Source: Acidobacteriota bacterium (lineage in GTDB: Bacteria; Acidobacteriota; UBA6911; RPQK01; JAJDTT01). From it: a stretch of DNA of 64,000 bases. The notes beneath the pieces were generated by a model. That model had not been told where the DNA came from. It saw only the letters and a list, made by a program, of their open reading frames with translations, and did not search any database. The translations under genes and the position numbers were made by a program. The DNA is taken from assembly GCA_028874215.1 (NCBI GenBank), contig JAPPLF010000066.1, forward strand, positions 62,001 through 126,000, given 5' to 3'. Of this stretch, positions 23,564 through 33,762 are shown piece by piece. How positions within the stretch are numbered: the stretch's first letter is position 1; the number at the start of each line of letters is the position of its first letter.

Positions 23564-23593
23564 ATTCTAGAGGCGCCGCGCTTGCCGGGTCAA
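23564..23593 (-). promoter_or_regulatory. Promoter of tRNA-Ser
   Basis: On the minus strand TTGACC (23593-23588), 18-base spacer, TAGAAT (23569-23564), about ten bases before the mature tRNA 5' side. Its -35 overlaps the stop codon of the upstream multidomain gene. Confidence 0.6.
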
Positions 23594-26500
23594 ACCGGTT
23601 CGTTCCGGTTCCCGTCCCCCATGCGCACGACATGCTCCCGGACGTCGTCGGCGATCTTTCGGTAAACCTGGACGCGGGACTCCTCGGCGCCGTCCGCGAA
23701 ATACCGCTCGGTCCTGATGGGCTTGCCGAAAGTCACTTCCAGCCGTCCGGGACGGGGAAGGGTGCGGCCCGCAGGCAGCGCCTGATAGGCGCCGTCGATA
23801 CGGACGGGGACGATCGGCACCCTGAGTTCCCGCGCGATGAGGCCGAGACCCGGCTTGAAGGATCGAAGCTCACCGGTCCGCGATCGAGTGCCCTCCGGAA
23901 AGATGAGAACGGGTTCCCCTTCCTGCAGGATCGTTTGGATGGTGCGGAGTCCCTCCAGCGAGGTTTCCTCCCGTTCGATGGGCACCACGTTGAGAAAGGT
24001 GCTGAAAAACCAGGCGCGAACGGCGTTGTTGAAGAAGTAGTCGCGGGCGCCCAGAAGATGGAGCTTTTTGGCTTGCCTGGTCCCCAGGGCCCCGGCCAGG
24101 GCGGCGATGATGGCGCCGCTGTCGAGATGGCTGGAATGGTTGGCGGCGATGATGTAGGCCTCGTCCCGGGGAAGACGTTCCGGAAAACGCAGCCGCAACC
24201 GGAAATAGCTTGCGTAGAGGAGCCGCAGAGCGGAGAAGGAGAGCCCGAGGAAGGCTCGGTCGACGGACGGGCGCTGTGACCACGGCAAGGCGGACCGGAC
24301 GGCGGGCGCGCCGCCGGCACCGTCTGCAGTTGCAGCCATGCCTTCCCGGACCGCATCGACCAGATCGCCAAAGCTCACCAGGGAGGCGACGCGCTCTTCC
24401 GGGAGAGAGATGCCGAACCGATGCTCCAGTTGAATCAGCAGCTCCATGGCGGCGAGCGAATCCAGGCCCACGTCGGTGAACAGATGGGAGTCGGGCGTGA
24501 TTTCCGCTGAGGGAATCCCCGAGATCCGGCTCAACTCCCGAGTCAGCTCCGTGGCGACGTCACTGCCGCGGGGACGCGCCGCCCGCCCGCCGCGAGCTCG
24601 AGAGCGGGCGACGCTCCGGTGCACGTTCTGCAGGATCACGTCGCGGGCGAGCGAGCCGTCGCCGCGCCTCGGGAGGGGTGTTTCCGAAAGATGAATGTGC
24701 TGCAGCCGCTGATATCCCGGAAGCTGGCGGGCCAGGGCGCGAGTCGCCCGCTTCATGGCCCGGGGCCATTCCGCCGCGGCCACGTCCCGCAACGTCTCCT
24801 TCCCGGGCACGATGACCGCATGGACATCTTCGGTCAGTCCCTTGGGAGTGCCCACCACGCAGATGTCTTCAACGGCCGGAACGTTGCGGTAGATGGCCTC
24901 CAGGTCCACGGGGTAGACGTTCTTGCCGGCCCCCGTGACGATGACGTTTTTCTTGCGCCCCGTGATGTAGAGGTATCCGTCCTCGTCCACCCATCCCAGG
25001 TCCCCGGTGTGGAACCAGCCGTCCCGCATCACGGCCCGGGTGGCTTCCGGGTTCTTGTAGTAACCCTGCATGAGGCTGGGCGTACGGACGATGATCTCCC
25101 CTTCTCCCCGGTCATCGGCCTGAAAAATCCGCAATTCGGTCCCGGGCAAAGGCTTGCCGGCCGAGCCGCGGCGGCTTCGATTCAGTGGGTTGACCGTGAG
25201 GACCGGCGCGGTCTCGGTGAGCCCGTAGCCCTCGTAGATCGTCAGCCCCAGGGCCTTGAAGTCATCGTAGAGTTCATCTCCGAGAGAAGAGCCGCCACTG
25301 ACGAAGGCTCGGATCCTGCCCCCGAATTCCTGGTGCACCCGGGCGAAAATCTGCCGTCCCAGGTTCTTCCCGAAAGTCTTGTCGATGGACTTGCTGAGTT
25401 GGCGCGACTTGGCCACCAGGTTGGACTTCAGAGACGACTTCGAGGCGCGCAGTGTGCGCCGGTTGATGTCGTCGCGGATCAGCGCGTAGAGACTGGGGAC
25501 GCCCAACATGCAGGTGGTGCCCGTCTCTCTCATGGTCTTCAGGATGACTCTTGGCTTCAGGGAGTGCAGGTAGGTGACGGTCGCGCCGCCAAACAAAGGG
25601 GAAAGAAAGCCGCAGGTGAACTCCAGAGCATGGTAGAGAGGGAGTACCGACAGGATCTGATCCGTCTGCTCCGCCGCCAGGTAGCGGTTCATGCCGTGGA
25701 GATTGCTCAGGAAGCTGGAGTGCGTGTGAACGGCGCCCTTGGGGTCGGCTGCCGTGGTCGTGGTGAAGATGATGGAAGCCGGGTCCCCGGCGTCGACCTC
25801 CACCGGGCGGCCGCCGGCGGGCGGGGAAACGGGTCCCACGGCGCCGGTGCTGCGCGGGTATTGCGGGAGGCCGAACGGTTGGGCCAACTCGTTGATGTTC
25901 AGGATTCGGATCGGGGCCTCGCCGGATTCATTGCGTGCCATGCTCTCAGGGGGCAACCGCTCGATGGAGCGTGCCGAAGCCAGGATGGCCCGGGCCCCTG
26001 TGAAGCGGGCGACGGACCAGACTTCACGGTGCCACGACTGCGAATCGAGGGGAACGACGACGAGTCCTTGAGAGGCCGCCCCGAGGTACGCGACACCCCA
26101 GTCCGGTTGGTTCTCCGCGAAGAGCACCACTCGATCTCCTTTGGCGAGGCCTTCGGTCCGGAGTTGCCGGCCGACGGTCGCGGCCCGGCGCTGAAGATCC
26201 GAGTAGGTATAGCGGATCCACTCGCCGTTGCGCTGCATTTGCAGCGCGGTCTTCGCGGAGTATCGGGATACGCTGTAAGCGAGGAGGTCGTTGATGGTCG
26301 AGACCGATCCGCCTTCGCCGGACGGTTGGACGTTCGGCTCCAGCGTGCCGGCTCCCTCCATCTTCAAGATGAATTTCTTGACTCCCGGGATGTGGATGTT
26401 CTGAATGTAGTGGCGCCAGTTCAGGCGCGTCACGTCGAAGTTGAAGGCTTCCCGCTCCTCCTGGGACATGGTGTCCAGCAGGCCCATCGTGTTCTCGATT

Positions 26501-27960
26501 CCGAAGCGGCAATTCAGGTTCAGATACGGTTCGTAGATCTCTCCGTAGTAGTAGAGTTTTTCGTGCGCGGCCTTCAGCGCCGAAAGGCGCCGCTTGTAGC
26601 GCTGGACGCCGCCCGGCGAGTCGAGTTCGGAGAGCTTGTCCAAGGCGCCCGACACCAGGTTCAGCGGCAGCGCCTTGAGTCGATGTTGCAAGCGGAAAAT
26701 GGCCGGCTTCGGGAAGCGGAGGTAGCGAATGTTGATGGGCCGCCCCGCCTTGTCGAACATGGGGTTTCTTTTGAAATAGCGGTAGATGAGATCGTAGAGG
26801 TAGCCCAAAGTGATGGGATTGCAGGATCCGGTGGCCACCTGGTAGATCTGGACACCGGTCGCGTTCGAGACGGCGGGAAGGGACGCCAGCAACGCGTTCA
26901 CCACCATATCCACGGGCACCAGGTCGATGATGACCTTGGGGCTCAGGGGCAGGGCCCGGAGTCGGCCCTTGCCGATGGCGGCGATGAGTGGATCGGCCAT
27001 GCGCAGGCCTTCGAGCCATCCGGGGCTGGGCTCCGAAAAACCGCTCTCGATGACGGCGGGGCGAATGATGATGGTGGGTGCGCCGTTCCGGGTGCGCAGG
27101 ACGATCCGTTCGCCGATGGACTTGGTGTAGGTGTAGGTGTCGTTCCAGCCCCGCTCGCGAGCCCAGCTCATCCCTTCCCGGGAGAGCTCGTTCTGGATCC
27201 ACTTCTTGCGGAGGTTCTCGATCTTCTCCCGCCTCCGGACGTTCCGCCCCCCCTTGGACCGCTTGAATCTCCGCAGCAGCGCCGCCGCGAATTCCCGCTC
27301 CCGTTCGGGCGCATAGGCGCGCTCGCGGACCGAGTCGAGGATTTTCTCGATGCGTTCGATGTCCAGGTCCACGTCGCTGAAGGCGCGCGCCGGAAAGGGC
27401 TCGCCGCCCCCGGCCGGAGCCTCCGGGATCGTTTCCGGAACCGACCCGACGACGGCGCCGCACACATAGGCGGTGGAGACGTGCACCAGGACACAGTCGT
27501 CACAGGACTGGGCAAAGCGGGCCACCCGTTGAGCGCCCAGCACATTCAGGTGGTAGGCCTCATCCAGCGGAGCGTCGAAGGAGACGACGGCGGCACTGTT
27601 GATGACGACGTCGGTTTCGCTCTGAAGGCGCTGCCGTGTCTCCTCGTCGATGTTCAGGTCGTCTCTGGACAGATCGCCCGAGACCGGGACCAGTTTCTCT
27701 TTCAGAAAGGCCGGAAAATCGTCGCCGAGCCTGCTTCGGAGCCGGTCGAAGCAACTGGCTTGGCAGAGTTCCCTTTCCAGTCTCATCCGGGCGGTCACGA
27801 CCGCGCCGCGCAGGTTCGTTCGCGGGCGGATCAGGACATAGACCCGCTTGACGCCGGGCACGGACCAGAGGATTTTCTCGACCAGGCACTGTCCCAGGAA
27901 GCCGGTGGCTCCGGTGATGAACAGTGTTTTGCCCTTGAGATATTCGCCTACCGAGTTCAT
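23590..27960 (-). CDS. Four-domain fusion: fatty acyl-CoA reductase, AMP-dependent acyl ligase, acyl carrier protein, PlsC acyltransferase
   Basis: One continuous 1,456-residue reading frame. Domain 1 (about 8-520) is a fatty acyl reductase of the male-sterility/FAR type: NAD(P) site TGATGFLG at 16-23, catalytic Y276-x3-K280 in YTYTKSIGE, and a FAR C-terminal region. Domain 2 (about 555-1105) is an AMP-forming acyl ligase with YEGYGLTE at 909-916 and the GWFHTGDLG segment; its P-loop (732-747) reads FTTTTAADPKG, and the usual catalytic lysine near the C-terminus is Ser1103. Domain 3 (about 1135-1210) is an ACP with the phosphopantetheine serine S1168 in GLDSL. Domain 4 (about 1260-1440) is PlsC with H1275-x4-D1280 and FPEGTR at 1354-1359. 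Inferred role: load a fatty acid on the ACP, reduce it to an alcohol and/or transfer it to a glycerolipid. The composition recalls the myxobacterial ether-lipid enzyme ElbD. An earlier in-frame TTG at 28035 is less likely. Membrane association is expected through PlsC. Confidence 0.88.
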   Translation of the reverse strand: MNSVGEYLKGKTLFITGATGFLGQCLVEKILWSVPGVKRVYVLIRPRTNLRGAVVTARMRLERELCQASCFDRLRSRLGDDFPAFLKEKLVPVSGDLSRDDLNIDEETRQRLQSETDVVINSAAVVSFDAPLDEAYHLNVLGAQRVARFAQSCDDCVLVHVSTAYVCGAVVGSVPETIPEAPAGGGEPFPARAFSDVDLDIERIEKILDSVRERAYAPEREREFAAALLRRFKRSKGGRNVRRREKIENLRKKWIQNELSREGMSWARERGWNDTYTYTKSIGERIVLRTRNGAPTIIIRPAVIESGFSEPSPGWLEGLRMADPLIAAIGKGRLRALPLSPKVIIDLVPVDMVVNALLASLPAVSNATGVQIYQVATGSCNPITLGYLYDLIYRYFKRNPMFDKAGRPINIRYLRFPKPAIFRLQHRLKALPLNLVSGALDKLSELDSPGGVQRYKRRLSALKAAHEKLYYYGEIYEPYLNLNCRFGIENTMGLLDTMSQEEREAFNFDVTRLNWRHYIQNIHIPGVKKFILKMEGAGTLEPNVQPSGEGGSVSTINDLLAYSVSRYSAKTALQMQRNGEWIRYTYSDLQRRAATVGRQLRTEGLAKGDRVVLFAENQPDWGVAYLGAASQGLVVVPLDSQSWHREVWSVARFTGARAILASARSIERLPPESMARNESGEAPIRILNINELAQPFGLPQYPRSTGAVGPVSPPAGGRPVEVDAGDPASIIFTTTTAADPKGAVHTHSSFLSNLHGMNRYLAAEQTDQILSVLPLYHALEFTCGFLSPLFGGATVTYLHSLKPRVILKTMRETGTTCMLGVPSLYALIRDDINRRTLRASKSSLKSNLVAKSRQLSKSIDKTFGKNLGRQIFARVHQEFGGRIRAFVSGGSSLGDELYDDFKALGLTIYEGYGLTETAPVLTVNPLNRSRRGSAGKPLPGTELRIFQADDRGEGEIIVRTPSLMQGYYKNPEATRAVMRDGWFHTGDLGWVDEDGYLYITGRKKNVIVTGAGKNVYPVDLEAIYRNVPAVEDICVVGTPKGLTEDVHAVIVPGKETLRDVAAAEWPRAMKRATRALARQLPGYQRLQHIHLSETPLPRRGDGSLARDVILQNVHRSVARSRARGGRAARPRGSDVATELTRELSRISGIPSAEITPDSHLFTDVGLDSLAAMELLIQLEHRFGISLPEERVASLVSFGDLVDAVREGMAATADGAGGAPAVRSALPWSQRPSVDRAFLGLSFSALRLLYASYFRLRLRFPERLPRDEAYIIAANHSSHLDSGAIIAALAGALGTRQAKKLHLLGARDYFFNNAVRAWFFSTFLNVVPIEREETSLEGLRTIQTILQEGEPVLIFPEGTRSRTGELRSFKPGLGLIARELRVPIVPVRIDGAYQALPAGRTLPRPGRLEVTFGKPIRTERYFADGAEESRVQVYRKIADDVREHVVRMGDGNRNEPV

Positions 27961-28141
27961 TGACAGCACCCCGAAAACATCCGGGTTCGAACCGTTGCGC
28001 CGCCCTGAAAATGTTGTCTGCAGCGGCTCCGTCAACTCATCAACGCATGGGAGAGATTACGCGGACGCTCTCTCCCCCGCAAGCTTTCCGGGTCCGTGAC
28101 GATGGTGGCCAGGGGCGGACAAAATCCACTGAACGCGAGAC

Positions 28142-28170
28142 TTGTGGGGGTGGCCGCGCTTTGCTGTAAT
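28142..28170 (+). promoter_or_regulatory. Promoter of the npdG-cofD-cofC-cofE operon
   Basis: TTGTGG (28142-28147), 17-base spacer, TGTAAT (28165-28170) preceded by an extended TGC. A leader of about 60 bases precedes the npdG GTG. The rest of 27961-28239 shows no gene. Confidence 0.5.
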
Positions 28171-28239
28171 GCGGCTTCCGGCAGGCGTGGACCCCGGGGT
28201 CGGGACCCCGCGCCTCAGGCAAAAAAACGAGGGCGGGTT

Positions 28240-28899
28240 GTGAAGCTTGGCGTGCTCGCCGGCACCGGACAGGAAGGCCGAGGCATTGCGCTGCGTCTTG
28301 CGAAGGCGGGGTGCGAGGTCCTGCTCGGATCCCGGAGGCGGAGCCGGGCGGCCGGGGCGGCGTCGGAGTTGAATCGTCTGCTGGGGGATGGAGCCCGGAT
28401 TCGGGGCGCCCTGAACCAGGAGGTGGCGGCGCGATCCGCAGTTCTCTTTGTGGCGTCTCCTTTCGCGGCGGCCGCCGATCTCGTCGCCAGGTGCTCACCG
28501 CACGCTGCCCCTGAAGCCACCTGGGTCGATGTCACGGTGCCGGTGTCGTTCGACTCCGGTCGGGTTCGATTGGCCTCCCTGGAGGCCCCCTCCGGCAGCG
28601 AGCAAGTGGCCGCGGCTCTTCCTGATCCGGATGCTTTGGTGGCGGCGCTGAAGACGGTTCCGGCCCGCCTCCTGGGCGAGGTCGCGGCGCCTCTCGACTG
28701 CGATGTCTTCGTCTGCGGGAACTCGGTGCGCCGGAAGTGCGAAGTGGCGGAATTGCTGAGCCCATGGCCCGGAGTCCGAACGGTGGACGCCGGCCCGCTC
28801 GAAGTGGCTCGGACGCTGGAGAGAATGAGCGCCCTTCTGATCGGCATCAATCGCCGATACCGGGTTCACGGGTCGCGTTTCCGCGTCGTGGGGCTTTGA
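28240..28899 (+). CDS. npdG: NADPH-dependent F420 reductase
   Basis: Transfers hydride between NADP(H) and coenzyme F420, linking the deazaflavin pool to cell redox. The 219 residues carry the NADP site LGVLAGTGQEGRG near the N-terminus, LLGSRRRSRA after the second strand, and the F420-side segment CGNSVRRKCEVAEL. The GTG at 28240 follows GAGGGCGG; the open frame extends upstream without conservation. It is the first gene of the F420 operon, seven bases before cofD. Confidence 0.9.
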   Translation: MKLGVLAGTGQEGRGIALRLAKAGCEVLLGSRRRSRAAGAASELNRLLGDGARIRGALNQEVAARSAVLFVASPFAAAADLVARCSPHAAPEATWVDVTVPVSFDSGRVRLASLEAPSGSEQVAAALPDPDALVAALKTVPARLLGEVAAPLDCDVFVCGNSVRRKCEVAELLSPWPGVRTVDAGPLEVARTLERMSALLIGINRRYRVHGSRFRVVGL

Positions 28900-28905
28900 A
28901 GATCC

Positions 28906-29886
28906 GTGGCGCCCGTCCCTCCCCGTGTCGAGATCGGCGATGAGTTTTCGAGGCCGGACGCCGTTCCCGTGGTGGCGTTGGCCGGAGGCGTCGGTGCCGC
29001 AAAGCTGGTCTGGGGTTTGGCGCTGGAGGGGCTCGGACGCCGCCTGTCCGTCGTGGTCAATACCGGGGATGACCTGGAGGCCGTCGGGCTGCGGATCTGC
29101 CCGGATCTCGACACCATCACCTACACCCTGGCGGGGCTGTCCAACCGGACCTGGGGCTGGGGCATCGAGGGAGACACGTTCCGCTGCTTGAATGCCCTTG
29201 GCCGCTTGGGTGCGGACACCTGGTTCGGCTTGGGAGACCAGGACCTGGCAACCCATCTCTGGCGAACCTCCCTGTTGAACCAGGGCTGGGGCCTGGCGGC
29301 CGTGACCGCACATATCTGCGAAGCGCTGGGGGTGGAGGTTTCGGTCCTGCCCATGGCCGAAGGCTACGCGCCGACTCTCGTGGAGACCGATGCCGGCCGC
29401 CTTCATCTCCAGGAATACCTGGTCAGGGAGAAGTGCGGTCCCCGGGTCCGGGGATTCGAGTACACGGGTTTGGATTCACAACGCCCCGCCCCGGGAGTGG
29501 AGAAGGCCATACGAAACGCCCGGATCATCGTCATCTGTCCCAGCAATCCCTTCATCAGCGTGGGACCGATTCTGGCGGTCCCCGGAATCAGGCAGGCGGT
29601 GGCGTCGAGTCCTGCCTTGGTGGCGGCGGTCAGTCCCATCGTCGGCGGGCGGGCCCTCAAGGGACCGGCGGCGAAAATGCTCGAGGAACTGGGGCATCCG
29701 GTCTCGGCCGAAGGGGTTGCCCGGATCTACCGGGGTCTCTTGGATGTCTTCGTGTTGGACGAACGCGATGCCGGAAGCGCGCTGGCCATCGAAGGTCTGG
29801 GCATGCGGGTCGTGGTCCGAAATACGATCATGGACACCCCCAGCGCGAAACGGGCGCTGGCACGCGCTCTCTTGCGGTTGGTATGA
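28906..29886 (+). CDS. cofD: 2-phospho-L-lactate transferase CofD (F420 biosynthesis)
   Basis: Joins the activated phospho-lactate (or PEP/3-phosphoglycerate) moiety to Fo, the deazaflavin, to make F420-0 or a variant. The N-terminal ALAGGVGAAKLVWGL and NTGDDLEAVGLRICPD are hallmarks, as are WFGLGDQDLATHLWRT and CPSNPFISVGPIL. The 326-residue length is typical. Overlaps cofC by four bases (ATGA). Confidence 0.95.
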   Translation: MAPVPPRVEIGDEFSRPDAVPVVALAGGVGAAKLVWGLALEGLGRRLSVVVNTGDDLEAVGLRICPDLDTITYTLAGLSNRTWGWGIEGDTFRCLNALGRLGADTWFGLGDQDLATHLWRTSLLNQGWGLAAVTAHICEALGVEVSVLPMAEGYAPTLVETDAGRLHLQEYLVREKCGPRVRGFEYTGLDSQRPAPGVEKAIRNARIIVICPSNPFISVGPILAVPGIRQAVASSPALVAAVSPIVGGRALKGPAAKMLEELGHPVSAEGVARIYRGLLDVFVLDERDAGSALAIEGLGMRVVVRNTIMDTPSAKRALARALLRLV

Positions 29887-30557
29887 ACGTCGTTCTGTTG
29901 CCGGTCAAGGAATTGGCGCAAGCCAAACGGAGAATGGCGCCCTGGCTGTCCCGCCGGGAAAGGGCTGGTCTGGTCCGGGCCATGTTGGAGGATGTGGGCC
30001 GGGCGCTGGCGAGCGCGAGATTGCCGGACAAGGTGGTGGTGGCCGGCCGGGACCCTGAGCTTGCGGCCTACGCTGAACGACGCCGGTGGGAGTTCATTCG
30101 GGAGTGGTCCCAAACCTCCGAGAGCCGCTCCGTGGATGAGAGCGCAATCGCGCTGCGCCAGCAGGGAGCAACCTCCGTTCTCAGGGTGCCGCTTGACGTC
30201 CCCCTCATCGAGGGGCGTGACGTGGACACTTTGCTGGGGCGTCCGTTGGCCGCTCCGGCGGCGCTCCTGGTGCCCTCACGGGACGGCCGGGGCACCAATG
30301 CCTTGCTGAGAATGCCTCCGGATGCATTTCCGTCCCGCTTCGGCCGTGACAGCCTGCGCCGGCATCTGGCAGAGGCGCGCCGCGCCCGGGTTGACGCCAC
30401 CGTGTTGTCGAACCCGCGGTTCGGCCTGGATCTGGACGGGCCCGAAGACCTGGTGCGGTTCTGGCAGGGAAAGGGGGGAGCGGCGACCAGGGGCTATCTC
30501 GCCGAGAGCGGTCTCGCCGCCCGCCTGGCCGGGAAGGGGTGGAGCCTTCATGGGTGA
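29883..30557 (+). CDS. cofC: 2-phospho-L-lactate guanylyltransferase CofC
   Basis: Activates a phosphorylated three-carbon acid with GTP for CofD. A 224-residue nucleotidyltransferase: LLPVKELAQAKRRMAP at the start, the central VPLDVPLI corresponding to the usual PADLPL, and the strongly conserved SRDGRGTNALLRMPPDAF plus LDLDGPEDL. The usual GLN-containing substrate loop is poorly kept (SESRSVDESA), so acceptor choice among phospholactate, PEP and 3-phosphoglycerate is open. Coupled to cofD and cofE by overlaps. Confidence 0.92.
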   Translation: MNVVLLPVKELAQAKRRMAPWLSRRERAGLVRAMLEDVGRALASARLPDKVVVAGRDPELAAYAERRRWEFIREWSQTSESRSVDESAIALRQQGATSVLRVPLDVPLIEGRDVDTLLGRPLAAPAALLVPSRDGRGTNALLRMPPDAFPSRFGRDSLRRHLAEARRARVDATVLSNPRFGLDLDGPEDLVRFWQGKGGAATRGYLAESGLAARLAGKGWSLHG

Positions 30558-31305
30558 CGGCGGCGTGCGCATCCTGGCCATCCCGGGGCTCCCGGAGGTG
30601 AAACGGGGGGACGCTCTGGGTCCACTCCTGTTGGAGGCGCTGAGGGGGATCCCATTGCGGGTCCGCTCAGGGGATATTCTGGTGCTGGCTCACAAGATCG
30701 TTTCCAAGGCGGAAGGGCGGACGGTGCCTCTGGCGGCGGTCGCCCCGTCTCCGTTGGCCGACTCCTGGGCGCGTGAATGGGGCCGTGATCCCAGGGTGGT
30801 CGAATTGGCCCTCACCGAGAGCCGGAGGATCGTGAAGATGGATCGCGGCGTCCTGCTGGCTGAAACCAGGCACGGGTTCGTGTGCGCCAATGCCGGTGTC
30901 GATCTCTCCAACAGTCCGCAGGGAACGGCCACCCTGCTTCCGGAGGATCCCGACCGCTCCGCGGCCGCCATCAGGGATTGCCTGATCGAGGCGACGGGTT
31001 CTGACTTGGCGGTGATCATTTCAGACACTTTCGGCCGGCCCTGGCGCGAGGGACAGGTGAACGTGGCCATCGGCATGGCGGGGGGAATGCCGTTGTCGGA
31101 CTATCGGGGAAGGAAAGACGGGTTCGGCCGAACGTTGCGGGCCACCTGCATCGCCCGAGCCGACGAAATCGCCTCCGCCGCGGAGCTGGTGATGGGAAAA
31201 CGGCGCCGGGTGCCGGCGGCGCTGGTCCGGGGAGTGAGCTTGGAAGACGGGCCAGGCGACGGATCGAGTCTGGTGCGTCCCGCGGAACGGGACCTGTTTC
31301 GCTAG
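30550..31305 (+). CDS. cofE: F420-0:gamma-glutamyl ligase CofE
   Basis: Adds gamma-linked glutamates to F420-0 using GTP. The 251-residue single-domain protein has SGDILVLAHKIVSKAEGR, SDTFGRPWREGQVNVAIG and ADEIASAAELVMGK, the family signatures. There is no C-terminal nitroreductase-like domain, unlike actinobacterial FbiB. The ATG overlaps the cofC stop and follows GGGGTGGAG. Its TAG stop shares CTAG with the convergent cofH stop. Confidence 0.95.
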   Translation: MGDGGVRILAIPGLPEVKRGDALGPLLLEALRGIPLRVRSGDILVLAHKIVSKAEGRTVPLAAVAPSPLADSWAREWGRDPRVVELALTESRRIVKMDRGVLLAETRHGFVCANAGVDLSNSPQGTATLLPEDPDRSAAAIRDCLIEATGSDLAVIISDTFGRPWREGQVNVAIGMAGGMPLSDYRGRKDGFGRTLRATCIARADEIASAAELVMGKRRRVPAALVRGVSLEDGPGDGSSLVRPAERDLFR

Positions 31306-32606
31306 TTCTCCGCGGTGAAAGTCCCACGCGTCCGCCCGCCCGGGGCGGCGCCGCGGCTGAAGCGAAACTTCCGCGACCGGGTCAACTGGGCATAGGAGCC
31401 GAAGCGGTTCCGGTCGCCGTCCCGCAGGGAGTCCAGCGGATGAGGCCCGTCTTCATCGTCGCCGGTGAAGGTGCGCAGAGTCCCGTAGAGCGTGTTCCGT
31501 TCCGCCGGGACTCTGCCCGCGTCGCGAATCACGCGATGCAGCTCTTCAGGGGTCACCAGTTGGCCATGACCGGCCCCGGCGGCGGTGGATATGCTCTCGT
31601 TGATCAGCGTCCCCCCCAGGTCGTTGCCGCCGGCCGCCAGGCAGAGTTGCGCCAGCTTCATCCCTTCCTTGACCCAGGAGACCTGGAGGTTGGGAATGTC
31701 CTTGTCCAGCGCCATCCGGGCGACGGCGTGGACCTTCAGAACCTCCCAGCCCGTGGGACCGGGCCGGAGATTGGGCAGCCGTCTGCTCTGGTAGAGGGGC
31801 GCCTCCGTGTGGACGAAGCCCAAGGGTACGAACTCGGTGAAACCGCCGGTCTGGCGTTGGATGGTTCTCAGGTGCGCCAGGTGCCGCGCAATGTGGACCG
31901 GGGTTTCAAGGTGGCCGAACATCATGGTGGAGGAGGTTCGGATGCCGAGGGAGTGGGCCGTCGAAATGACCCGGGTCCATTCTTCACTGCTGATGCGCCC
32001 GGGCGAGATGAGGTCGCGCAGGTCGTCGTCCAGGATTTCGGCGGATGTGCCGGGGAGGCTGCCGATCCCCGCATCGCGGAGTTCCGCCAGGTAGTCCCGG
32101 ACCGGCATCCCGGAGCGCTGGCACCCGTACGAGATCTCCTCCGGCGAAAATGCGTGGACGTGCAGGCCCGGCAGGGCGTCGGTCACGGCCTGGCAGATGC
32201 GGATGTAGAGGTCACCCGGCATGGCGGGAGGCAGCCCGGCCTGGATGCAGACCTCCGTAGCGCCGAATTTGCGCGCCTCGCGGGCCCGCCGGACAATTTC
32301 GGACACGGGCAGCAGATAGCCTTCGTCGCTGCGGTAGGTTCGGCTGAAGGCGCAAAAACTGCATTTCTTGGCGCAGACATTGGTGAAATTGATGTTGCGG
32401 TTGACCACGTAGGTCACCCGGTCGCCGACGGAACGGCGCCTCAGAGAGTCGGCGGCTTCGAGGAGGGCGAGAAACTCGGGTCCCTGGCACTCCAACAGCC
32501 GGACCAAATCGGGAACCGCCAGGTCGCGGCCCTCCAGCGACTTGCCCAGAATCCGGGCGACGTCGACTCGAACGCCGCTCAGCGTCCGCTCCGGATCAAC
32601 CGGCAC
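31302..32606 (-). CDS. cofH: CofH, 5-amino-6-(D-ribitylamino)uracil-L-tyrosine 4-hydroxyphenyl transferase
   Basis: Radical SAM enzyme for the first half of Fo (deazaflavin) synthesis, joining tyrosine to a riboflavin precursor. The [4Fe-4S] motif is C78-x3-C82-x2-C85 (CAKKCSFC). VNRNINFTNVC, the FSPEEISYG segment and ESISTAAGAGHG match CofH and not CofG. 434 residues. It overlaps the upstream cofG by 11 bases and ends against cofE. Confidence 0.94.
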   Translation of the reverse strand: MPVDPERTLSGVRVDVARILGKSLEGRDLAVPDLVRLLECQGPEFLALLEAADSLRRRSVGDRVTYVVNRNINFTNVCAKKCSFCAFSRTYRSDEGYLLPVSEIVRRAREARKFGATEVCIQAGLPPAMPGDLYIRICQAVTDALPGLHVHAFSPEEISYGCQRSGMPVRDYLAELRDAGIGSLPGTSAEILDDDLRDLISPGRISSEEWTRVISTAHSLGIRTSSTMMFGHLETPVHIARHLAHLRTIQRQTGGFTEFVPLGFVHTEAPLYQSRRLPNLRPGPTGWEVLKVHAVARMALDKDIPNLQVSWVKEGMKLAQLCLAAGGNDLGGTLINESISTAAGAGHGQLVTPEELHRVIRDAGRVPAERNTLYGTLRTFTGDDEDGPHPLDSLRDGDRNRFGSYAQLTRSRKFRFSRGAAPGGRTRGTFTAEN

Positions 32607-33762
32607 CGGCGGCCTCCACGGCTGAAACCGGGGTCTGCGCCCGGAGGGAGGCGGCCGGGAAATACCCGTCCGGGTCCGCCTCGGCCCGCAGCCGGGAGCG
32701 GAGAGCCGACGGCAGGAATGAAGAAGGCTCCCGAATGTATTCGGGATAGACGGGAAAGCGGGCCTTGAGCCGGAAGCCGCGCGATTCGGTTTGACTGGCC
32801 AGGGCGGCGATTCGGGGCCAGGGGGCCTCGGGATTCACGAAGTCGATGGTCAGCGGAGAAATGCCGCCCCAATCGTTGATTCCGGCGTCGAGGTAATTCA
32901 GATAACGAAGACTGCGGGCCGAGAGATTGGGAGGCGCCTGCAGGTTGGCTGAGCCGCCCAGAATCAGACGGGCGCGTGAGAGCGTTTCCATCATCTCCCG
33001 GCCGGTTGCACCCGGCGTTGCCGCCATGGGAGTTCCCGGCTTGGGGACGAAGTTCTGGATGATGAATTCCTGCAGGTGGCCGTACCGGCTCTGAAGGCGC
33101 CGGAGCTGGTGAAGGGAGTCGACCCGGTCCTGGGCGGTTTCCCCGATTCCGACCAGAAGTCCGGTTGTGAAGGGGATCTTCAGTTCGCCGGCGTCCCGAA
33201 GCACTCGAAGTCGCAACCGGGGGTCCTTGGTTGGATTCCGATGATGCGGGCCTCCCGGTTCGCAGAGTCGGCGGCTCGTGCTTTCCAGCATCAGTCCCAT
33301 GGACACGTTGACCTGTTTCAGGGCCGCCAGCTCGCCCCGGGTGAGAATGCCGGGATTGCTGTGGGGGAAGAGGCGGCTCTCCGCCAAAACCAGCGAGCAC
33401 ATGTCGTAGAGATACTCGATCGTGCTGTCGTATCCGTGCCGGCGAAGCCAGCGGCGCGCTTCCGGGTAGCGCCGCTCCGGCCGGTCGCCCAAAACGAAAA
33501 GGGCCTCGCGGCAGCCCAGTTCCTCCCCCCGGCGAACGACGGTGAGAACCTGGTCCGGGTTCAAGTAGGGTGGGAACTCGTCATTGGCATCCTTCCGGAA
33601 GGCGCAGTAGCCGCAACGGTCACGGCAGAGGCGGGTCAGGGGGATGAAGACTTTGGGCGAAAAGCTGATGGTCCGGCCCTTGACCCGGTCGCGCAGGCGC
33701 GCGGCGGCGCGGCAAAGCGTTTGCACGGACTCCGGGAGCCGCCGTTCCCGCGTCTTGGCCAT
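32596..33762 (-). CDS. cofG: CofG, 7,8-didemethyl-8-hydroxy-5-deazariboflavin synthase
   Basis: Second radical SAM enzyme of Fo synthesis, closing the deazaflavin ring. The cluster motif is C46-x3-C50-x2-C53 (CRDRCGYC); HSNPGILTRGEL, QEFIIQNFVPKPGTPM and the late DWGGISPLTIDFVNPE are CofG signatures. The 388 residues include a C-terminal extension. CofG and CofH are separate here, as in archaea and proteobacteria, not fused as in actinobacterial FbiC. The ATG has almost no leader if the extended -10 upstream is used. Confidence 0.94.
   Translation of the reverse strand: MAKTRERRLPESVQTLCRAAARLRDRVKGRTISFSPKVFIPLTRLCRDRCGYCAFRKDANDEFPPYLNPDQVLTVVRRGEELGCREALFVLGDRPERRYPEARRWLRRHGYDSTIEYLYDMCSLVLAESRLFPHSNPGILTRGELAALKQVNVSMGLMLESTSRRLCEPGGPHHRNPTKDPRLRLRVLRDAGELKIPFTTGLLVGIGETAQDRVDSLHQLRRLQSRYGHLQEFIIQNFVPKPGTPMAATPGATGREMMETLSRARLILGGSANLQAPPNLSARSLRYLNYLDAGINDWGGISPLTIDFVNPEAPWPRIAALASQTESRGFRLKARFPVYPEYIREPSSFLPSALRSRLRAEADPDGYFPAASLRAQTPVSAVEAAGAG

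Follow-up and report, generated by a model that had tools for sequence, protein, structure and literature searches.

How can bacteria form alkyl ether bonds outside the plasmalogen-synthase route, what does ElbC do, and by which mechanism does ElbD work (PMC9131029)? These questions are touched by one gene in the 64,000-nucleotide stretch of DNA analysed here (the window), whose host is an uncultured Acidobacteriota bacterium that is probably sponge-associated. The original prediction had read this gene as a possible assembly line in a single chain, in which a fatty acid would be loaded on the internal carrier protein and reduced to an alcohol, and chains would be placed on a glycerolipid, yielding ether or other neutral lipids. 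Our best explanation, to which we give a probability of roughly 55%, is a divergent ElbD-type ether-lipid enzyme with a probably non-adenylating ligase domain, for which an alkyl-DHAP synthase (AGPS) encoded elsewhere in the genome would form the ether bond.

A four-domain protein related to ElbD

The minus-strand reading frame is open over 23590–28035, where it reaches a TTG start; counted from the ATG at 27960, at which the homologues start, the elbD-like gene spans 23590–27960 (−) and encodes 1456 amino acids. Pfam domains cover the chain nearly end to end in the order reductase, ligase, acyl carrier protein (ACP) and acyltransferase, all on the minus strand. The reductase part, which matches the solved fatty acyl-CoA reductase 7eoz (PDB; 3e-84), consists of a Rossmann domain with TGATGFLG and YTYTK motifs (NAD_binding_4, 2.6e-63; aa 15–356, 26893–27918) and the C-terminal Sterile domain (2e-14; aa 461–533, 26362–26580). 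It is followed by the N-domain (AMP-binding, 1.3e-69; aa 563–968, 25057–26274) and the C-domain (AMP-binding_C, 5e-6; aa 1020–1093, 24682–24903) of an ANL ligase, by an ACP domain whose GLDSL motif includes the phosphopantetheine serine Ser1168 (PP-binding, 2e-13; aa 1139–1204, 24349–24546), and by a PlsC-type acyltransferase with NHSSHLD and FPEGTRS (Acyltransferase, 1.2e-24; aa 1255–1388, 23797–24198). The predicted uninterrupted frame with four lipid modules is thus confirmed by the open frame, the Pfam order and the full-length homologues; NAD_binding_4, AMP-binding, PP-binding and Acyltransferase were each found in the expected order, and every quoted motif (TGATGFLG, YxxxK, YGLTE, GLDSL, HxxxxD and FPEGTR) is present. 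The reductase, ACP and PlsC motifs are intact, and the ligase is degenerate.

Full-length relatives in the window's genus and order share 92%, 88% and 55–58% identity (the last range for the order), and dN/dS among three species of the genus is ~0.09–0.28 in every domain. The frame is therefore no chance product, and the low dN/dS throughout shows that the gene is a working one in every part. The opposite strand carries an overlapping 1114-aa open reading frame (24619–27963, +), which the high GC content probably explains. Further full-length relatives occur in Gemmatimonadota (55–57% identity), Poribacteria (35–40%), Planctomycetota, Verrucomicrobiota and Armatimonadota; a Chloroflexi contig holds a broken elbD copy, and a plasmid search gave no full-length match. 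The window's genome contains a second strong NAD_binding_4 match (C51:71188–74895), a fatty acyl reductase that continues into sequence read by eye as a sulfotransferase, for which reason it was rejected as a second ElbD.

ElbD, a product of the elb operon of Myxococcus xanthus (Lorenzen 2014, reviewed in PMC9131029), unites an N-terminal FAR1-like fatty acyl reductase (FAR) domain with acyl-CoA synthetase (ACS), ACP and AGPAT-like domains in one protein. The window protein likewise contains FAR, ACS, ACP and acyltransferase in one chain of ~1450–1500 aa, and the comparison with ElbD made in the original prediction was correct. Moreover, NRPS-like clusters with an elbD homolog of identical domain set are described from sponge Acidobacteriota and Poribacteria (PMC9426513), the same phyla as here and a habitat that fits the probably sponge-derived genus of the window, and ElbD homologues of Acidobacteria have likewise been reported (PMC11868695). 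Given M. xanthus ElbD and the sponge data, the four-domain architecture is already known; it is not categorically new, and the ElbD idea has already been published for Acidobacteriota.

The likeness to M. xanthus ElbD is one of published domain description, and kinship at the sequence level was tested by proxy with the canonical-operon ElbD of other Acidobacteriota, to which the window protein is only 30–34% identical, end to end. These proteins make up another branch within the Acidobacteriota (family f29 and others), in which the operons encode a HAD phosphatase, a Lar_N protein, ElbD and an NAD-epimerase; if the ElbC of M. xanthus is the Lar_N protein, this order is that of the published elbB-C-D-E operon. 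A tree of the ligase, ACP and acyltransferase domains, the root of which was not independently placed, separates the window's branch and canonical ElbD jointly from Aas-like proteins (support 100/100). The two branches likewise group in the reductase tree, where two stand-alone reductases encoded beside elbC join the canonical one. These belong to Acidobacteriota without full-length ElbD, where they lie between an elbE-like gene and elbC (L162:1140–4500 and L163:706–4999), a gene order that couples the reductase to ElbC.

Other multidomain enzymes fit less well. E. coli Aas shares the fusion of a ligase with a PlsC acyltransferase, but has them in the reverse order, comprises 719 aa without reductase and internal ACP, and retains an intact P-loop and A10 lysine; an identity with the Aas type, in which the acyltransferase precedes the ligase and FAR and ACP are absent, was rejected. 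Carboxylic acid reductases also combine an adenylation domain, a carrier and a reductase in a single protein, but in A-T-R order and without an acyltransferase; that order is absent from the window protein, which scores 156 bits against an NCBIfam cut-off of 1300, and this identity was rejected as well. A wax-ester or other neutral-lipid enzyme, in which the acyltransferase would esterify the fatty alcohol made by the reductase, would account for FAR and acyltransferase in one chain, but the acyltransferase belongs to the PlsC type and carries glycerolipid motifs, and the neighbours of the relatives are HAD phosphatase, diacylglycerol (DAG) kinase, AGPS and LarA-like genes instead of wax genes. 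Domain order and scores also led to rejection of the wax-ester identity, and we regard this role, for which the original prediction had left room, as highly improbable.

Degeneration of the ligase domain

In the ligase superfamily, the A10 lysine serves the adenylation step. The A10 motif of the window protein, LPRRGDGSLARD (24640–24675, −), has Ser1103 in place of this catalytic residue, and in its A3 P-loop, IIFTTTTAADPKG (25735–25773, −), both glycines are replaced. In the window's genus the lysine is likewise missing, and the P-loop, which reads FTTTTAADPKG in the window protein too, has lost both glycines. With these residues exchanged, the A3 and A10 adenylation motifs do not look like working ones. 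Canonical-operon ElbD and Aas-like proteins, in contrast, possess the A10 lysine and the second P-loop glycine in 18/18 cases and, apart from single deviations elsewhere in the motif, have TSGTTGxPKG (in E. coli Aas, A3 reads TSGSEGHPKG and A10 contains GK). In the window's branch (Acidobacteriota, Gemmatimonadota, Poribacteria and Armatimonadota), the lysine is found in 2/20 proteins and the second glycine in 0/20; members from Planctomycetota and Verrucomicrobiota keep the lysine and have lost this glycine. A Poribacteria subgroup (L055, L058, L061, L063, L066, L070, L073, L089, L095 and L112) has also lost the A8 arginine, with GH for GR. The ligase-degenerate branch may be new, and the consulted passages of the sponge study mention neither a ligase defect nor an exclusion between AGPS and ElbC (PMC9426513).

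An ordinary ElbD would activate free fatty acids with its ligase, load its own ACP and make ether lipids as in M. xanthus, with AGPS as a separate minor pathway. The window protein has the domain order of ElbD and keeps A5 (YGLTE), A7 (TGD) and A8 (GRKK), two close relatives (L041 and L043) possess the A10 lysine, and ACS and ACP activity has been demonstrated for M. xanthus ElbD (PMC9131029). However, neither the P-loop glycines nor the A10 lysine, a hallmark of its motif, survive in the window's genus and in the greater part of the clade, mutation of the two equivalent glycines in a related ligase lowered activity about 1000-fold and 14-fold (PMC8388817), and the window's genome lacks the elb partners, all of which makes an ordinary ElbD rather unlikely. 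The missing lysine lowers adenylation without proving that it is absent. Since its conservation equals that of the other domains, we read the ligase domain as retained though probably not adenylating. The original proposal that the chain charges its internal ACP with a fatty acid is accordingly weakened: the carrier with its GLDSL motif is intact, but with the P-loop glycine lost and the A10 lysine mostly lost, self-loading is doubtful.

Gene neighbourhoods and proposed ether-forming partners

The HAD gene elbB is the immediate downstream neighbour of elbD, in the same orientation, in 62/80 loci of the window's branch, which come from several phyla. Two more genes follow in Gemmatimonadota and in part of the Acidobacteriota and Poribacteria, one of them alcohol-dehydrogenase-like (MDR) and the other the LarA-like elbC. 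This arrangement connects the clade with the elb system, of which canonical B-C-D-E operons are present in other Acidobacteriota. A YegS/diacylglycerol-kinase-like gene is frequent near elbD or elbC in several phyla (L044:2008–2895, L050:3833–4759, L111:16833–17738 and L149:11482–12405). In one poribacterial locus (L111:7986–12277), ElbD is encoded by two overlapping genes, one for the reductase and one for the ligase-ACP-acyltransferase part, followed by elbB, MDR, elbC and DAG kinase genes; the division is either natural or due to a frameshift in the assembly.

Unlike in the elb operon and these relatives, elbB, elbC and elbE are all missing around the window gene, and no elbC (E<=1e-30) or elbB (E<=1e-15) was found in its genome. 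In the window's genus elbD stands alone, divergent from coenzyme F420 genes, a full set of which adjoins it at 28096–33762 (npdG, cofD, cofC and cofE on the plus strand; cofH and cofG on the minus strand), whereas the sponge clusters are flanked by hydrolase/dehydratase and oxidoreductase genes (PMC9426513). Divergent cofD and cofE, mostly with npdG, occur beside elbD in L040 and L047 as well as in the genus. L040, from another family of the same order, has npdG, cofD, cofC and cofE in the equivalent position and keeps elbB, MDR and elbC behind elbD, so that the window's lineage has probably lost these partners.

Instead of ElbC, the window's genome encodes a true AGPS (C80:184498–186237) with the SHHHGVGK motif and a match of 5e-166 to mammalian AGPS (4bby), directly followed by a short-chain dehydrogenase (SDR) gene. 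Together with FAR, this set resembles the mammalian AGPS pathway, except that here FAR and acyltransferase are fused to a ligase and an ACP in one protein. Its position on contig C80 leaves this AGPS gene without linkage to elbD. Two other loci, L042 (Acidobacteriota) and L057 (Poribacteria), have an AGPS-SDR pair on the strand of elbD and downstream of it, at the usual place of elbB; the pair adjoins elbD in L057 and is separated from it by one or two small genes in L042. The elb-type neighbours of the relatives and the AGPS in the genome argue for the ether-lipid role that had been proposed from the domains.

Among 65 genomes with the window's ElbD type, 48 have only ElbC, 12 only AGPS, two both (G005 and G016) and three neither (G014 and two Poribacteria). 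In the window's order, 11 of the 15 ElbD genomes encode AGPS and three others carry elbB next to elbD, none having both (Fisher p=0.009), and in the 50 ElbD-bearing genomes of other phyla, ElbC occurs in 45, AGPS in three and both in none (p=5e-4); these genomes are drafts, and shared ancestry and incomplete MAGs cause the Fisher values to overstate the exclusion. The remaining genome of the order, which is 72% complete, has neither AGPS nor elbB. On a quick ElbD tree, the AGPS-only state requires at least five changes, and the pattern therefore does not go back to a single inherited event. More than one AGPS lineage is involved, since one Planctomycetota AGPS is of the Dictyostelium type (3e-148 to 2uuu). 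Genomes that carry the canonical operon may have AGPS too (G165, G179, G240 and G310), as in M. xanthus. The AGPS/ElbC replacement pattern may be new.

Alternatively, the protein could be an ether-lipid enzyme to which AGPS is unrelated, elbB and elbC being replaced by another unlinked gene. The separate contig of AGPS in the window's genome and the three genomes without AGPS and ElbC would be in line with this, but AGPS and SDR follow elbD in two phyla and the exclusion of AGPS and ElbC recurs, and we consider such an arrangement improbable. As nearly every genome with the window's ElbD type has ElbC or AGPS, it is also doubtful that the chain is an assembly line by itself.

Proposed alternative modules for the ether bond

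For the divergent ElbD-type enzyme that we prefer, we infer every chemical step from gene content and motifs. The ligase-ACP part would hold or hand over chains activated elsewhere, as acyl-ACP or acyl-CoA, without adenylating free fatty acids; the reductase domain would convert activated chains to fatty alcohol, and the PlsC domain would acylate glycerol phosphate or DHAP. AGPS would then create the ether bond by putting the fatty alcohol in place of the acyl group on acyl-DHAP, and the adjacent SDR would reduce alkyl-DHAP as in the peroxisomal pathway of animals. In most relatives, the genes for ElbB, dehydrogenase and ElbC would take the place of AGPS and reductase, and we predict that ElbB/ElbC and AGPS are alternative ether-forming modules.

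A point against this scheme is that loss of AGPS alone had a minor effect in M. xanthus, where ElbD represents the main route and does not mainly feed AGPS (PMC9131029). This argues that ElbD can work with another ether-forming partner, for which the exclusion pattern suggests ElbB/ElbC. Both domains of ElbC are similar to those of LarA-like nickel-pincer enzymes (9q2u, 1.2e-30; structures in PMC12611868), and no paper listed in our literature search connects LarA with ether lipids. LarC, encoded by a cofactor gene for LarA-like enzymes, is present in 33/36 genomes tested and does not separate those with ElbC from those without. A search for the CarF/PEDS1 desaturase gave no match in the window's genome, with all controls equally silent. 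We tentatively suggest that ElbB and the LarA-like, probably nickel-pincer ElbC do the ether-bond job of AGPS for ElbD, that the modules were swapped several times, and that in the window's lineage a non-adenylating ElbD feeds fatty alcohol and acyl-glycerolipid to AGPS.

Ether lipids of the brGDGT type from Acidobacteria are widely used climate proxies. For the ElbD family, the degenerate ligase is a warning that an ElbD-like protein need not be a self-loading assembly line. The mutual exclusion of AGPS and ElbC singles out one candidate, ElbC, and makes the question of the ether bond directly testable; if true, the mutual replacement of AGPS and ElbB/ElbC would put a name to the ether-forming step that is missing from the elb pathway.
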